Below are positions 6,891 to 30,562 of a stretch of 64,000 nt of DNA, one piece after another. Every line of letters begins with the position of its first letter. Positions within the stretch are counted from its first letter, which is position 1. Made by a program: the position numbers and the translations under genes. The notes under the pieces were generated by a model that worked only from the letters and a program-made list of their open reading frames with translations, was not told the origin of the DNA and searched no databases. This DNA comes from an uncultured Holophagaceae bacterium (lineage in GTDB: Bacteria; Acidobacteriota; Holophagae; Holophagales; Holophagaceae), in NCBI GenBank assembly GCA_903884655.1, contig CAISFO010000060.1, positions 62,001-126,000 on the forward strand, given 5' to 3'.

Positions 6891-8030
6891 ATGGCCAAAC
6901 TGCTGGTGCACGAAAGCGCGGGTGTTCGAGAGTTCGAGATCATCGACAACGAGGTCCACATGGGGCGGGAGCTGGACAATACGCTCCGCCTGCCCGATCC
7001 CAGCATCAGCCGGCACCACTGCGTGCTCCGCAAGGTGGGCGGGGGCTTCGAGATTCAGGACCTCCAGAGCAGCAACGGTGTGCTGGTGAACGGCAACCGG
7101 GTGCAGTCCTCCCCCCTGAGGGACGGAGACCGCATCACCCTGGGTCAGGTGCAGCTCACGTTCCAGGATCCTCGTCAGGAGGTGGCTGCCACGGTGGCCA
7201 TCAACATCCAGGACAGCCCAGCGCCGCCCAGCGGAACGGTTCGGATGTCCGCCGACCAGCTGGCGGCCATCCACACCGGCAAGCCCCCCTCGGAGCCCGA
7301 ACCCAACATCCAGCTCCAGGACCAGGTCGCCACTGGCCCGGTGCCCACCGTCAAGCCCCCCATGCCGCCCGTGGCCCCTCCCCCCCAGGGCTTCATGCCA
7401 CCGCCACCCGCGCCAGTCCCCGGGAGCCCCGCGCCGGCCTTCCTCGCAGGCATCCTGCCGTCTGTCCCGGATGAGGCCGTACCCACGGGGGAACGGGGCG
7501 ATTTCGTCACCCGCCTGCTGGCGGCCCTCATCGACTACTCCCCCATGCTGGTCCTGCAGCTCTTGTCGATGCTGCTCATGCCCGCCTCCCTCTCGATGGG
7601 CGGCATGGGCGCGGGCTTCGGAGCCCTGGCGGCACTCGGCTGCCTCTCCTTCCTCCTCTGGCTGGGCTACCTCTTCTTCGTCCCCTGGTGCTGGATCCGG
7701 TTCGGCGCCACCCCCGGGAAGAAGATCATGAAGCTGAGGGTCGTCCCGGAGGCGAACCCCACCGGGCGGGTCGACCTGGGCATGGCCGTGCTGAGGATGC
7801 TTGGCTACCTCCTCAATGGCATCATCGCGTGGGTCATCACCCTGCCCTTCACCCTCCTCTTCGTGGTCGGCGCCATGAGCGGGGGTGGCTTCGGGACCAC
7901 CATGCCGCTCATGAAGGTCGTCAGCCTGGCGGCCAACCTGGTGCCCTACCTCCTGATCCTGTTCACGACGGGGCGAAAGGGTCTCCACGACATGATCAGC
8001 AAGACCGTGGTCATCAAGGTCGACCGCTGA
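6891..8030 (+). CDS. FHA domain + RDD-family membrane domain protein
   Basis: N-terminal FHA (MGRELDNTLRLPDPSISRHHCVLR...SSNGVLVNG); C-terminal RDD-like TM domain (FVTRLLAALIDYSPM...GATPGKKIMKLRVV). Confidence 0.85.
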   Translation: MAKLLVHESAGVREFEIIDNEVHMGRELDNTLRLPDPSISRHHCVLRKVGGGFEIQDLQSSNGVLVNGNRVQSSPLRDGDRITLGQVQLTFQDPRQEVAATVAINIQDSPAPPSGTVRMSADQLAAIHTGKPPSEPEPNIQLQDQVATGPVPTVKPPMPPVAPPPQGFMPPPPAPVPGSPAPAFLAGILPSVPDEAVPTGERGDFVTRLLAALIDYSPMLVLQLLSMLLMPASLSMGGMGAGFGALAALGCLSFLLWLGYLFFVPWCWIRFGATPGKKIMKLRVVPEANPTGRVDLGMAVLRMLGYLLNGIIAWVITLPFTLLFVVGAMSGGGFGTTMPLMKVVSLAANLVPYLLILFTTGRKGLHDMISKTVVIKVDR

Positions 8031-23861: not shown

Positions 23862-26800
23862 ATGGGCACGCTTGCCACTCGACTCCTGGCTGCATTCACC
23901 CTGCTGTTCTCCCTGCCACTCCTGGGCCAGGAGACGACCCCCACAGCCCGCTTCAAGATCAACTACAAGCGCTTCACCCGGGGCAAGAACGCCAAAGTGC
24001 AGGACGAGGCCGCAGGACGGCTGGAGTGGTTCCGGGAGCGCATGGGGGGCGCCCTGGGCCCCGATTTCGCGGATCGCCTGCTCAGCCAGGCGGAGCTTGA
24101 GCGCGCCAAATATCCCTCCCAGTTCCCCGTGGCAGGCGGGCCCCTGCGACCCCTGGCGGCCAGCGGCACCACCTGGGTGTCCCTGGGACCGACCAGCTCG
24201 AATTTCACCCAGAACGGCGTCCAGCTCGCCAAGGTGGACAGCGGGCGGCTGCGGGTCATCCTGCCCGACCCATCGGACGGCACCGGCAATACGGTCCTGC
24301 TGCTGGCGGCCGGGGGCGGGCTATGGAAGACCACGGATTTCCTGAATGCCAACCCAGTCTGGACCGCTCTGACGGATTTCGTCGGAAGCAACATGTCCGG
24401 TTCGGCCGCGTTCGGGCGGACCAGCAGCACCCTCTACGTGGGCGCGGGCGACCCCTTCGACGCCGGGGTGGGCGGCTTCATGATCAAGTCGGTCAACGGG
24501 GGGACCACCTGGACCAACCACGTGGCGCTCGGCGCGGCGACCCTGGTCACCGAGGTGAAAGTGGACATCAGCCAGGGCGGCGGCCAGACCAGCGACATCG
24601 TGCTGGTGGGCACGGATGTGGGCCTCTACCGTTCCATCGATGGCGGCACCTCCTACTCCGCCGTGACCAGCGCCCCGGGCCTGGTCTGGAGCATCGTGAA
24701 TACCTCGGCAGGCTGGCTGCTGAGCACCGTCGCCAACAACGGGGCAGGCACCCTGCTGCTGAGCACCAACCATGGAGCCACCTGGTCCGCCATTTCCAAC
24801 TCGGGGTCGGTCTATTCCGGAGCCGGTCGCACCACCCTGGCCGTCGGCGCCCCGGGCGACGCGATCGTGTACGCCTTCGCCGCCACGGCAGGAACAGGCC
24901 CCTTCCAGGAGTCGGACCAGAAGGACCTCTACCGTTCGATTGACGGGGGACAGACCTGGACCGCCAAGGGCCTCAACGCCAAGGTGGCGATCAACGCTGC
25001 GGGCAACGCCGACCAGCCGAACATGGACCTCATGCATGGCCAGGCCTGGTACAATCAGATGATCCTGGTGGATCCCTCCGATGCCTCCAAGAACACCCTC
25101 TACCTGGGTGGCGATCTTTCTTCGGCCAGGAGCACGGATGGCGGCACCACCTGGACCCTCATCAGCAACTGGCTGCCCGACCCCACCAGCGGCACCGGAT
25201 CCTTGCCTTACATCCACGCGGATTTCCACTGTGCGGCCTACTCGAATTTCGGGGGCAGCGCCCGGCTCTATTTCGGCGGAGATGGTGGCATCTTCACCAG
25301 CACCAATGCCGGAGCCAGCTGGGACGACACCAAGAACAAGGGGCTCGTGAACCACCTGCTCTACACCCTGGTGTCGAACCCGGCCACCTCCGGCAGCGTG
25401 CTCACCGGCATGCAGGACCTCGGCATCCGGCTGAGGGAGGGCACGACGCCGGTGTTCAACCAGGTCCAGGGCGGCGATGGCTTCGGCATCGGCTGGAGCC
25501 AGACCGGCAATGCCATGTCCCTGGGCAGCTATGTCTACAACGCCATCGTGGCCTGCACGGCCAATCCTCCGGATGACCAGGCCAAGTTCAACGATTTCAC
25601 CTCTGGTCTCGGACACACCGGGGGAGGCACGGGCTCCACAGTCGACAACGGCGCCAGCTACTACTTCGTCACACCCGTCAATGCGCCCCCGGGATCCGCC
25701 GATCCCAGCGGCCAGGTCTTCTTCACGTACGGGAATTCCAACAATGGCCTGAGCGGCTCCCCCAGCGCGGGCCCGAACAGCGGCAAGATCTTCAGGAGTT
25801 CCGGAACCGGGTGGACCACCATTGCCACGCCCGGCTCGAGCGGCATGACCGCGAACCGCTTTGTCCGCGCGGTGAGTCATGGCATCGGCGTCAGCCCCGT
25901 GGACCTGCAGCACATCGCCGCCGCTGAAAATGGTGGCAACGTGCTCTACACCACCAATGGCGGCAGCTCCTGGACCGAGGTCTACCTCGGCTCCAGCGGC
26001 ACCGACGGCGTGGTCCCGGGCTGGCTCGGGTTCAACGCCAATGTCGCCTGGGCCAACAACAACCTTCTCTACATCTGCTCGGAAGTCGTCACGGCCGGGG
26101 CCATCCGTCTGGCCAAGTCCTCCAACGGGGGTGCCACCTGGATCCGGGCTGACGGGGGACTCCCCGATGTGCCCATCACCAAGCTCGCCGTGGATCCCGG
26201 TGATGCCACCGGCAACACCGTGTATGCCGCCACCTGGATCGGTGTCTACCGCACCACCAACGGCGGTACCGCCTGGTCCCCATGGGGCACCGGCCTCCCC
26301 CAGGGACGGGTCACCGATATCTGGGTGGCCCCCAACAGTGCCACCATACGCGTGGCGACCTGGGGTCGCGGGGTCTGGGAACTTGCCAGCCCTGTCTCCG
26401 GCCCCACTGTGATCCTTGCGCCCACAACCGCGGTCCTGGTCTACAACGGCACCCAGGCCTTCACCCCCACCGTCGCAGGCGGCACCACCAACACCGTGAC
26501 CTGGTCAGCCACCTCGGGGGCCATCGCCGCCGGGCCCACCGGCTCAGGCGTGGCCCACACCTACACCGCGCCCGCCGCCGGCACCACAGACACCGTCACC
26601 GCCACCACCGTGGACACGCCCCAGGCCCAGGCTTCGGCGGCCATCACGCTGGTGGCGCCTGCGGCCGTGACCGTGGCCGTAAGTCCGGCCTCGGTGGACC
26701 TCATGACCACCACGGGGTCCCAGCAGTTCCTGGCCTCCGTCAGCGCCGGTGGCGCCCCCCTGACCAACAGTGCCGTCACCTGGAGCGTCACCGGAGGCGT

Positions 26801-27323
26801 CGGCCTCAGCGGCACAGGCCTCTTCAGTGCGGGCAGTCTGGCGGCCGGCCCCTATACCATCACAGCCACCAGCGCCGCGGCCTCCAGCCAAACGGGTACC
26901 GCTACCGTGACACTGCTGGCCCCAGCTTCCGTCACCGTGACCGTCAGCCCACTCGCGGTCACTTTGGGCACCAACGGCTCCCACCAGTTCACCGCCACGG
27001 TCACCGGTCCTTCGCTGTCCGCCAACAAGGCTGTCGCCTGGTCCACGAGTGGCGGCGGAACCATCACATCCGCGGGCCTGTTCACGGCCTCCACGGCCGT
27101 GGGCTCTCCCTTCACCATCACGGCCACCAACACTTTTTCGGGTGCCGTGGGCACCGCCACCGTCAATGTGGTCACCCTGGACCTCAATGGTGACGGCACG
27201 GTGAGCCCTCTGGACCTGCTCACGTTCGCCAAGTACTACGGCACCACCAATGCCAGCTGCCTCCTCAGCGGAGACAGCACCGTGAGCGATGCGGATCTGG
27301 CCATCCTCCTGGCCGGCATGTGA
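23862..27323 (+). CDS. Large secreted BNR/VPS10-like repeat protein with Ig-like domains and C-terminal dockerin
   Basis: Signal peptide; repeated S-x-DGG-x-TW-type motifs; two Big-like domains; C-terminus LDLNGDGTVSPLDLLTFAKYYG...SGDSTVSDADLAILLAGM. Confidence 0.85.
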   Translation: MGTLATRLLAAFTLLFSLPLLGQETTPTARFKINYKRFTRGKNAKVQDEAAGRLEWFRERMGGALGPDFADRLLSQAELERAKYPSQFPVAGGPLRPLAASGTTWVSLGPTSSNFTQNGVQLAKVDSGRLRVILPDPSDGTGNTVLLLAAGGGLWKTTDFLNANPVWTALTDFVGSNMSGSAAFGRTSSTLYVGAGDPFDAGVGGFMIKSVNGGTTWTNHVALGAATLVTEVKVDISQGGGQTSDIVLVGTDVGLYRSIDGGTSYSAVTSAPGLVWSIVNTSAGWLLSTVANNGAGTLLLSTNHGATWSAISNSGSVYSGAGRTTLAVGAPGDAIVYAFAATAGTGPFQESDQKDLYRSIDGGQTWTAKGLNAKVAINAAGNADQPNMDLMHGQAWYNQMILVDPSDASKNTLYLGGDLSSARSTDGGTTWTLISNWLPDPTSGTGSLPYIHADFHCAAYSNFGGSARLYFGGDGGIFTSTNAGASWDDTKNKGLVNHLLYTLVSNPATSGSVLTGMQDLGIRLREGTTPVFNQVQGGDGFGIGWSQTGNAMSLGSYVYNAIVACTANPPDDQAKFNDFTSGLGHTGGGTGSTVDNGASYYFVTPVNAPPGSADPSGQVFFTYGNSNNGLSGSPSAGPNSGKIFRSSGTGWTTIATPGSSGMTANRFVRAVSHGIGVSPVDLQHIAAAENGGNVLYTTNGGSSWTEVYLGSSGTDGVVPGWLGFNANVAWANNNLLYICSEVVTAGAIRLAKSSNGGATWIRADGGLPDVPITKLAVDPGDATGNTVYAATWIGVYRTTNGGTAWSPWGTGLPQGRVTDIWVAPNSATIRVATWGRGVWELASPVSGPTVILAPTTAVLVYNGTQAFTPTVAGGTTNTVTWSATSGAIAAGPTGSGVAHTYTAPAAGTTDTVTATTVDTPQAQASAAITLVAPAAVTVAVSPASVDLMTTTGSQQFLASVSAGGAPLTNSAVTWSVTGGVGLSGTGLFSAGSLAAGPYTITATSAAASSQTGTATVTLLAPASVTVTVSPLAVTLGTNGSHQFTATVTGPSLSANKAVAWSTSGGGTITSAGLFTASTAVGSPFTITATNTFSGAVGTATVNVVTLDLNGDGTVSPLDLLTFAKYYGTTNASCLLSGDSTVSDADLAILLAGM

Positions 27324-27334
27324 GGGAGACGACC

Positions 27335-27931
27335 ATGACCACTTCTGCGCGATTCCTGGGATTGGCCGCCCTCGGGCTGGTGGCCATCCTGGGCTGCAAG
27401 GACACCGGCAGCACCTCGGCCTCGTCGAACCCTTCCACGCCCACCGCCACCACTCTTGCCTATGTGGACCCCACCGCCGGCACCTACCTGCTGAAGAAGA
27501 ACACCACCCTGTCGACCACCTCCCACCTGGTCCTGGATCTGGTGGGCCCCGCCGCCACCACGGGGTCCGGCATCAGCGCCACCTTCAGCGCGGACACGGC
27601 CAAGGTCACCTGGACCAACGTATCGGCCCTCGATCCGGCCAATACTTTGGTCCAGGGCGGTGGCACCTTCAACCTCGGCTCCGCCCCCCAGATCCTGAAG
27701 GGCAAGGTCGTAGGCAGCACCCTCCAGGTGGCCGCCGCGCAGAAGGGCATCGGCAGTCCGGTGTCGCTCAATGGCCCTCTGCTCCGCATCGCCCTCGACC
27801 TCAAGGCTTCCCAAGCCACTGGAGCCGTGGCCTTTTCGGCGCCCTCGGCCAACCACCAGAGCCAGCTCCTTGACGCCACAGGCAACCTGGTGGATATCAC
27901 GGTGACCGTCGGTACACTGACGGCCCAGTAA
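27335..27931 (+). CDS. Lipoprotein, putative cohesin-like domain
   Basis: Lipobox LVAILGC; single beta-rich domain ending LLDATGNLVDITVTVGTLTAQ, resembling cohesin C-termini; starts 11 nt after the dockerin gene. Confidence 0.6.
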   Translation: MTTSARFLGLAALGLVAILGCKDTGSTSASSNPSTPTATTLAYVDPTAGTYLLKKNTTLSTTSHLVLDLVGPAATTGSGISATFSADTAKVTWTNVSALDPANTLVQGGGTFNLGSAPQILKGKVVGSTLQVAAAQKGIGSPVSLNGPLLRIALDLKASQATGAVAFSAPSANHQSQLLDATGNLVDITVTVGTLTAQ

Positions 27932-28006: not shown

Positions 28007-30562
28007 GTGGATCACTATCCACGAATCCGCTGCACTCCCAGGGGTGTAATCGCCGGAGTCACCTTGAGCCTGTCGCCGTCCCGAGGCCTCGCCCTTGCCG
28101 CCCTGGTCACTCTGCTCGCTTGTGGCGGTGGCGGGTCCAGTCCTGCGCCGGTCCCGCCTCAGTCCCCGGCCATCAGCTCGATCAATCCCAGCCATGGCAG
28201 CCCGGGGACCACGGTGGTCATCACGGGCACGGGCCTGTCGGCCACCACTGCAGTTGCCTTCGGCGGAGGGGGCGCCTTCTCCTTCGTCGTGGTTGGTGAC
28301 ACCGAAATCGATGCGGTCGTGCCCGCCAATGCCGCCAGCGGAGCCATCCAGGTCACCAAGCCCAGCGGATCGGCCACCTCCCTCCCATTCACCGTTGATC
28401 CCTTCCAGACTCCCACCATCACTGGCTTCACACCTTCTGCCATTGATTACGGTGGGACCCTGGTCAACCTGTCGGGCACGCATCTCATCGGTGCCACCCA
28501 GGTGCAGTTCAATGGCGCCAACGCAGTCTCATTCGGTGTATCCAGCGACACGCAGATCCTGGCCACCTCACCCACGCCCCTTGCGGCGGGAACCATCTCG
28601 GTCACTACCCCTGGGGGGAAGGCGGTCAGCGCGCCGTTCCAGGTTGCCTGGGGCGCCCCCTCGCTCACCAGCGTGAGACCCGCACGGGGCCCAGTGGGCA
28701 CGCCGGTGGTGCTCCGGGGCAGCAACCTGGGCTACCCGAATACCACCATCACCCTGAACGGCACGCCTGCGGCGATCACCTCGCAGTCCGCCTCCCAGCT
28801 CGCCTTCACCGTGCCGGCCGGAGCCACCAGTGGAAGCCTGGTGGTCAGCACACCCGGAGGTGCCATCTCCCAGACCTTCCCGGTGGATGTTGGCGTCGCC
28901 CTGGACCTCCACGTGGACAAGGTGCAGTTCACCCAGAGCACCCAGACCCTGGACAACACCGTGCCGATCGTGGCCGGGAAAGCCGGCCTCGTCCGGGTGT
29001 TCGCCCTGGCCAACCTGGCGAACAGCGCGGCCCCCACGGTGGAGGTCACATTGTTCAACAACGGTGCGCCTGTGTTCGGTTATCCCAAGACCGTTCCCGC
29101 CCCTGCCGGCAGTGTCCCCACCACCCTGAATGAAGGCGTCCTCACCTCAAGCTGGAATCTGGCCATCCCAGGCACGGACCTCACCACGCCCACCGGCAGC
29201 GGCTACAGCGTCATGGCGGTGGTGGATCCCACGGGCAACGTGGCAGAGAGCGACAAGACCGACAATGCGCTCACGGTGCCGCTCACGGCCACCACCGTGC
29301 CCATCTTCAAGACCACCATCTTCCCGGTCGTCCTGGCCAGCGGCACGGGGAACATCACGGCGGCCAACAAGGACGCCTGGGTGGCCCGCCTGGCGAGGAT
29401 GTACCCCGTGGCCAGCACGGATGTCGTGGTGGGCTCGACCTTCACTGGATCCGTCAGTTCCCTGGTCAGCAATGACAGCGACAAGCACTGGGAGACGCTG
29501 CTGCTGGACCTGGCGACCAAGCATTCGGCGGATGGAGCCACTGACCGTTACTATTTCGGCGCCCTCAAGGTGAGCTACACCTCTGGCGTGGCCGGACTCG
29601 GCTACGTTCCCTCCAGCGCCTCGTCCCCGTTCTATTCACGGACGGCCATCGGCTGGGACAAGACGGGCTACCAGGACGGCGGCAACTACCCTGAGGTCTT
29701 CGCCCACGAAACCGGCCACAACATGGGCCGGGGGCACAGCCCCTGTGCACCCAGTGGCCAGCCCCTGCCTTCGGGCCTCGACCTCTCCTATCCCTACGCA
29801 GGTGCCTCCATCGGTGTGTGGGGCTACGACAGCACCGCGAACCAGCTGAAGGACCCGACCACCTGCAAGGACATCATGGCCTACTGCAGTCCCGTCTGGG
29901 TGAGTGACTACGTCTACAAGGGGATCCTCAATTTCCGCGCCGCTTCGGGCGGATTCCTGGTGGTGGGGGCCCTGGAGGAAGCGCCGTCGCTGGCGGCGTC
30001 CGCCACCGTGGATTGTTTGATCGTCCGGGGCATCCTTCACGGTGATGGGAAGGTGGATCTGCGCCCAGCCTTCAGGACCCAGGCGCATCCCTCCGCCCTC
30101 TCCGGCCAGAGCGAATACGTCCTTGAATGCCTTGATGCCAAAGGTCAACCCATCTTCAGCACGACCCTTGAGCTGATGGATCTCGGCTGCTCTGCAAATG
30201 CCCCGACTCGCCACTTCGTCATGGCGCTTCCGCTGGCTGCGAACCTGCTGGATGGGATCACGGGGTTGCGGGTCCTGAAGGCCGGGCAGGTCATGGCCAG
30301 CCTGCAGCCCACCGGATCCGCCCCCCTCAAGCGCAGGGTGACCACCGCTCCGGAAGCCCACCGCCTTGACCCCAGCCAGGTGGAGCTCCAATGGGATGCG
30401 ACAGCCCATCCGGCCGCCCTGGTCCGGGATGGGGAAACGGGCGAAGTCATCGCCATCCTCGGCGGAGGCCGGCAGACCTTCGCGACCCCCGCCCGACAGA
30501 TCGACCTCGTCCTCAGCGACGGCGTGGTGGGCCAGGCACATCGGCTGGCGATCACCGAGTAG
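28007..30562 (+). CDS. IPT/TIG + CARDB-like secreted metzincin-type metalloprotease
   Basis: Lipobox-like LACGGGG; tandem TIG domains; FAHETGHNMGRGH (HExxHxxGxxH) and downstream CKDIMAYC Met-turn-like segment. True start uncertain. Confidence 0.8.
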   Translation: MDHYPRIRCTPRGVIAGVTLSLSPSRGLALAALVTLLACGGGGSSPAPVPPQSPAISSINPSHGSPGTTVVITGTGLSATTAVAFGGGGAFSFVVVGDTEIDAVVPANAASGAIQVTKPSGSATSLPFTVDPFQTPTITGFTPSAIDYGGTLVNLSGTHLIGATQVQFNGANAVSFGVSSDTQILATSPTPLAAGTISVTTPGGKAVSAPFQVAWGAPSLTSVRPARGPVGTPVVLRGSNLGYPNTTITLNGTPAAITSQSASQLAFTVPAGATSGSLVVSTPGGAISQTFPVDVGVALDLHVDKVQFTQSTQTLDNTVPIVAGKAGLVRVFALANLANSAAPTVEVTLFNNGAPVFGYPKTVPAPAGSVPTTLNEGVLTSSWNLAIPGTDLTTPTGSGYSVMAVVDPTGNVAESDKTDNALTVPLTATTVPIFKTTIFPVVLASGTGNITAANKDAWVARLARMYPVASTDVVVGSTFTGSVSSLVSNDSDKHWETLLLDLATKHSADGATDRYYFGALKVSYTSGVAGLGYVPSSASSPFYSRTAIGWDKTGYQDGGNYPEVFAHETGHNMGRGHSPCAPSGQPLPSGLDLSYPYAGASIGVWGYDSTANQLKDPTTCKDIMAYCSPVWVSDYVYKGILNFRAASGGFLVVGALEEAPSLAASATVDCLIVRGILHGDGKVDLRPAFRTQAHPSALSGQSEYVLECLDAKGQPIFSTTLELMDLGCSANAPTRHFVMALPLAANLLDGITGLRVLKAGQVMASLQPTGSAPLKRRVTTAPEAHRLDPSQVELQWDATAHPAALVRDGETGEVIAILGGGRQTFATPARQIDLVLSDGVVGQAHRLAITE

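Follow-up and report, generated by a model that had tools for sequence, protein, structure and literature searches.

Dockerin-tailed exported proteins paired with lipoproteins of predicted cohesin fold in Holophagaceae

Introduction

Many non-cellulolytic bacterial proteins carry dockerin tails without an obvious partner, and the question of what such tails dock to is raised by a gene pair from an uncultured Holophagaceae bacterium of the phylum Acidobacteriota. The pair lies in a 64,000-nucleotide stretch of contig CAISFO010000060.1, which is the whole stretch analysed here and is called the window below (host genome: 3.92 Mb in 98 contigs). A gene for an exported protein of 1153 amino acids (aa), ending in a dockerin, is followed after a gap of 11 nucleotides (nt) by a gene for a lipoprotein of 198 aa. 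We propose that the lipoprotein is a lipid-anchored cohesin that captures the dockerin-tailed protein encoded beside it, and we give this reading a probability of about 0.8. It is supported by the predicted cohesin fold of the lipoprotein, by the conserved pairing of the genes in both gene orders, and by the covariation of the lipoprotein with the dockerin.

The dockerin tail of the exported protein

The C-terminal tail of the 1153-aa protein is a genuine dockerin. The isolated 65-aa tail matched Pfam Dockerin_1 (PF00404) with an expectation value (E) of 2.2e-9 and 37.8 bits, against a curated cut-off of 22.9 bits; the match was weak when the whole 1153-aa protein was scanned (E 0.005, 17.4 bits). 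Among the tails of partner proteins, 51 of 55 matched the same family. The structural model of the tail (predicted local distance difference test, pLDDT, 92.5) shows two loops, each followed by a helix, and in a fold search against the PDB the ranks 1–16 were all occupied by dockerin-containing chains. The best match was 2y3n_B, with a root-mean-square deviation of 1.4 over 45 columns and a probability of 1.00. The E-values of this search were poor (0.03 at best, all above 0.01) because the dockerin domain is so short. From direct reading, the first calcium loop, DLNGDGTVSPLD, is canonical, and the second, LLSGDSTVSDAD, has no Asp at loop position 1, where most homologues keep it (DLNGDGTVDDKD). 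EF-hand-like repeats also serve as stabilising elements and the second loop is degenerate here, so that the tail might be a calcium-stabilised cap or a secretion signal that does not bind the neighbour. We regard this as very improbable, because a two-repeat dockerin fold stands beside a cohesin-fold lipoprotein in most genomes.

A preliminary description of this locus had given both open reading frames with their coordinates and 11-nt spacing, and had pointed out a dockerin-like pair of segments at the C-terminus. The frames, coordinates and spacing were all correct on re-reading, and the dockerin assignment is borne out by the score and the fold.

The lipoprotein and its predicted cohesin fold

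The lipoprotein matched no Pfam or NCBIfam family. Its Cys21, in the lipobox ILGC, is invariant in an alignment of 46 homologues, and the Pfam Cohesin model (PF00963) matched neither the window lipoprotein nor any of the 46. Comparison of the lipoprotein profile with PDB sequences gave marginal matches only, the best of them spanning just 21 residues, and therefore the fold was not settled by sequence alone. An AlphaFold2 model was built from the 46 natural homologues. It reached a pLDDT of 89.6 and a predicted template modelling score of 0.80, and the pLDDT was at least 89 in each 10-residue block from residue 31. When this model was compared by Foldseek with 350,542 PDB chains, all 50 listed matches were cohesins with a probability of 1.00 (best E 3.8e-5; template modelling score up to 0.69 by target length), at a sequence identity of just 8–16%. 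The modelling thus suggests that the domain has a cohesin fold. The preliminary description had called the only domain of the lipoprotein cohesin-like, and had proposed a fold check in which the lack of a cohesin jelly-roll would refute the idea; this check was run and did not refute it, since the model matched cohesins.

Carbohydrate-binding modules share the jelly-roll with cohesins, and with an identity to cohesins of this order the lipoprotein could be a jelly-roll protein with some other job, for example sugar binding, whose gene adjacency to the dockerin has no bearing on it. This explanation is hardly credible, and we place it last among those considered: no carbohydrate-binding module was among the 50 listed matches, the adjacency to dockerins is near-universal as described below, and distant homologues are recognised as cohesins. 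Specifically, three distant lipoproteins from other Acidobacteriota families exceeded the Pfam Cohesin cut-off, with 27.6, 33.0 and 31.2 bits. When the mature domains were compared by hhalign, the lipoprotein family aligned end to end with the distant lipoproteins to which these three belong, over 140 collinear columns (E 2e-5, as the value for a single comparison), which shows homology to accepted cohesins at the profile level. Matches of the full-length profile in other Acidobacteriota families had turned out to be mostly signal-peptide and poly-Gly matches, and therefore the profile work was redone on the mature domain only.

No Pfam cohesin that could partner the dockerin instead was found elsewhere in the host genome, and no Holophagaceae genome was among those with a match in a phylum-wide Pfam cohesin search. 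In three other Acidobacteriota genomes (G371, G378 and G429), Pfam cohesins and a dockerin occur in one open frame, with two cohesins plus the dockerin in G371 and G378, and these frames resemble small scaffoldins. In the lipoproteins of five loci (L047, L048, L049, L050 and L051), an extra segment starting YTVTFVAG lies between the lipobox and the cohesin and is possibly a stalk.

Pairing of the two genes across genomes

Searches of the host genome for Dockerin_1 and for the lipoprotein gave exactly two Dockerin_1 matches and, at the BLAST level, exactly two lipoprotein copies. They form two side-by-side pairs at two separate loci, in opposite gene order. Since the genome has two dockerins and two lipoproteins and each pair is adjacent at its own locus, the pairing is not a matter of chance.

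The same arrangement was found throughout the family, and a locus search with a single protein named Geothrix species and other Holophagaceae as close relatives with a related locus. The lipoprotein is present in 70 of 78 Holophagaceae genomes and Pfam dockerins in 56 of them. Across the 78 genomes, 69 of 84 Pfam dockerins have a lipoprotein homologue on the same strand no more than 1.5 kb away, a count that is centred on neither gene because both lists came from whole-genome searches; the typical distance between paired genes is about 50 nt. Counted from the lipoprotein, a dockerin-tailed protein is encoded next to 104 of 125 copies; the dockerin gene comes first in 98 of these and the lipoprotein gene in 6. 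This count is partly circular in that it uses a dockerin model derived from 25 of the tails. This model matched 106 of 11,429 open reading frames and 0 of 11,429 reversed ones. The 125 copies include two (L117 and L118) from contigs binned in other families, which are probably strays. The pairing of dockerin and lipoprotein is thus the rule of the family and not an oddity of a single locus.

Of the 21 lipoprotein copies without a dockerin-tailed neighbour, 16 belong to alternating cassettes and three sit at the end of a contig, which leaves two true exceptions. The alternating cassettes (L071, L074, L090, L091, L180, L182, L184 and L185) run in the order lipoprotein, protein of about 820 aa, lipoprotein, second protein; the proteins of about 820 aa are thermolysin-like where scanned, and their tail is a degenerate EF-hand that was not recognised as a dockerin. 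Two "orphan" dockerin matches (L123 and L124) are not at the C-terminal end of the proteins that carry them, and they probably do not represent dockerin tails. In one genus (L125, L130 and L131) a dockerin-tailed gene appears to occupy the same locus but has no lipoprotein gene beside it, and lipoprotein copies lie elsewhere in those genomes.

In other Acidobacteriota families, dockerin genes likewise adjoin genes for cohesin-type lipoproteins (L114, L119, L120, L121 and L122). A cohesin-like lipoprotein with no dockerin neighbour was seen in three other Acidobacteriota genomes (L112, L113 and L116, at about position 7000), next to a peptide deformylase-like gene in all three and to a cysteinyl-tRNA synthetase-like gene in L113 and L116.

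Passenger proteins and the covariation of lipoprotein and dockerin

The window protein starts with the signal peptide MGTLATRLLAAFTLLFSLPLLGQ and showed weak matches to Sortilin-Vps10 (E 1.6e-7; 30.9 bits, under the cut-off of 33) and BNR (E 0.005) and a match to fn3_6 (E 4.4e-5); its NCBIfam glycosylhydrolase match was far under the cut-off. For the window locus, the earlier characterisation of the passenger as BNR/VPS10-like and not a glycosidase therefore holds. When sorted by their N-terminal parts, the dockerin-tailed neighbours form six or more groups plus singletons; 72 of the 104 belong to the largest group, that of the window protein. Their domains include the BNR/Vps10 propeller, thermolysin M4, subtilase S8, immune-inhibitor-A M6, the pro-kumamolisin activation domain, C39-like and weak papain-like peptidase matches, NPCBM, and immunoglobulin (Ig) arrays. 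The passengers are mutually unrelated, with the dockerin as the common element. No cellulase domain was found in the passengers scanned, namely the BNR/Vps10 propeller, peptidase and Ig-rich proteins. A literal cellulosome was rejected, given a lipoprotein with a single cohesin and the finding of neither a scaffoldin nor cell-wall glycosidases.

Dedicated inhibitors or pro-domain helpers often accompany secreted peptidases. As many of the passengers are peptidases, the lipoprotein could be a dedicated chaperone or inhibitor of the catalytic or propeller domain of its partner, with the dockerin tail incidental. However, one lipoprotein family pairs with many unrelated folds, including a propeller that is no peptidase, and its predicted fold is that of a cohesin. 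The lipoprotein sequence also follows the dockerin and not the passenger. Over 98 pairs, the partial correlation between lipoprotein and dockerin distances was 0.62 with passenger similarity controlled, while that between lipoprotein and passenger similarity was 0.19 with the dockerin controlled. For pairs with unrelated passengers within one genus, the lipoprotein-dockerin correlation was 0.53, a value reached by 0 of 2000 within-genus shuffles. That the lipoprotein tracks the dockerin more than the passenger speaks against a function bound to the passenger domain, and we judge the chaperone or inhibitor explanation most unlikely.

A proposed docking mechanism

In the docking that we propose, the first gene would supply an exported passenger, here a BNR/Vps10-like propeller protein, that ends in a dockerin, and the second a small lipoprotein whose sole folded domain would be a cohesin on a flexible tether rich in Gly, Ser, Thr and Pro. 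Acylated Cys21 would anchor the lipoprotein in a membrane, and the cohesin would bind the calcium-loaded dockerin, so that the passenger would be held at the cell envelope, most likely at the outer surface. Since all pairs have the dockerin in common, one and the same cassette would serve many unrelated passengers, peptidases among them in large number, and each passenger would have a cohesin inherited along with it, perhaps of its own specificity. The preliminary description had read the tandem pair as a possible minimal surface-docking system, and the predicted fold, the conserved pairing and the covariation support that interpretation.

Several findings weigh against the docking reading. 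Some dockerins, for example L125, L130 and L131, have no adjacent lipoprotein. The second calcium loop of the window copy is degenerate. The covariation could equally reflect co-inheritance of a dockerin-cohesin cassette without contact between the two proteins, and residue-level coupling (98 pairs, effective number 78) was not enriched on the face where the dockerin is expected to bind, with 13 of the top 50 couplings there against 12.1 expected (p 0.13); the strongest coupling of all is one of residue 135, which lies in a strand attributed to this face. Finally, no outer-membrane export route was identified for the passengers.

The last point bears also on the location. A signal peptide and a lipobox alone are no proof of surface exposure, and together with the missing export route they would allow the cohesin lipoprotein to face the periplasm and to retain the passengers there, a sub-case that differs from surface docking only in the place. 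The passengers, however, are typical secreted peptidases and exoproteins bearing Ig or propeller domains, and what is established about these families makes action outside the cell the more likely. We therefore consider the outer surface the probable location, presumably reached by an export route of the passengers across the outer membrane, and the periplasm a less likely one, though still the most serious of the alternatives. A wider reading has about an even chance in our view: surface display throughout the Gram-negative Acidobacteriota, in which each secreted protein, in many cases a peptidase or a propeller, would have its own lipid-anchored cohesin of private specificity, and in which the Holophagaceae version would rely on a cohesin family that present sequence models fail to detect.

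Comparison with known systems

Cohesin-dockerin pairs outside cellulosomes are established, for instance in Archaeoglobus fulgidus (Voronov-Goldman 2011 and Bayer 1999, as cited in PMC9705933 and PMC9012536). Like that pair, the present one has a cohesin and a dockerin unconnected with cellulose degradation and no multi-cohesin scaffoldin. Unlike it, the cohesin here is sequence-cryptic and would be the sole domain of a bacterial lipoprotein, in a pair that recurs with many passengers, whereas the A. fulgidus cohesin is archaeal and recognisable by sequence. The A. fulgidus cohesin and dockerin genes are neighbours as well.

OlpA and OlpC of Clostridium thermocellum are SLH-anchored to the Gram-positive wall and tied to the cellulosome. 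The proposed system would resemble them in that an anchored single cohesin retains a dockerin-bearing protein at the surface, and their structures (PDB 3ul4 and 4dh2) are among the Foldseek matches of the lipoprotein model; here, in contrast, there would be a lipid anchor, peptidase and propeller passengers, and one anchor per passenger. The NagJ-NagH pair of Clostridium perfringens (2ozn) is likewise a non-cellulosomal pair of secreted proteins, but there the cohesin lies inside a secreted glycosidase and here on a lipoprotein. The fold search with the lipoprotein model listed the C. perfringens cohesins 2jh2 and 2vo8, and that with the dockerin tail listed 2ozn. To our knowledge, no gene-pair rule exists for the C. 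perfringens modules. In anaerobic methanotrophic (ANME) archaea, dockerins are also carried by non-cellulase exoproteins, possibly for surface attachment, but with multi-cohesin scaffoldin-like proteins and S-layer domains, and no lipoprotein cassette is reported there (PMC9012536).

Three features thus appear to be new: a cohesin family that neither Pfam nor NCBIfam detects, the use of such a cryptic cohesin as a bacterial lipoprotein's only domain, and a consistent one-to-one operonic pairing with diverse passengers, many of them proteolytic. A full-text literature search found no paper describing a lipoprotein-cohesin/dockerin cassette, but it covered only literature outside subscription, and priority is therefore not established. 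The missing dockerin partner in Holophagaceae would be the neighbouring lipoprotein with its hidden, predicted cohesin fold, and what non-cellulosomal dockerins dock to becomes directly testable. By such an arrangement Gram-negative bacteria could keep secreted proteases at the cell in a simple manner, and protein engineering gains many modules that are paired by nature; phylum-wide display, if true, would provide cohesin-dockerin pairs in large number that are potentially orthogonal.

Organization of the locus

The features of the locus are listed in Table 1. Both genes are likely to be translated from one transcript, because the short gap carries GGGAG six bases before the ATG.

Table 1. Positions of the gene pair, its modules and the adjoining gene in the window
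Feature	Position	Strand	Basis or remark
Exported passenger protein, 1153 aa	23862..27323	+	Signal peptide, BNR/Sortilin-Vps10-like propeller repeats, Ig/fn3-like repeats, C-terminal dockerin
Dockerin module, two EF-hand-like segments, residues 1107-1153	27180..27320	+	Dockerin_1 score, model, fold search
Calcium loop 1, DLNGDGTVSPLD	27180..27215	+	Canonical ligand positions present; direct reading
Calcium loop 2, LLSGDSTVSDAD	27261..27296	+	Degenerate, Leu for Asp at position 1; direct reading
GGGAG, Shine-Dalgarno-like	27324..27328	+	In the 11-nt intergenic gap; direct reading
Lipoprotein, 198 aa, putative cryptic single-cohesin protein	27335..27931	+	
Lipoprotein signal peptide, lipobox ILGC, predicted lipidated Cys21	27335..27397	+	
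Predicted cohesin-fold domain, residues 38-198	27446..27928	+	Model pLDDT and PDB fold search
Neighbour outside the pair, lipoprotein-like, three TIG domains, metzincin-type peptidase domain	28007..30562	+	

The neighbour outside the pair has a lipobox, its metzincin-like domain gave M66/reprolysin matches, and in the main Geothrix locus it is conserved directly 3' of the cohesin lipoprotein.

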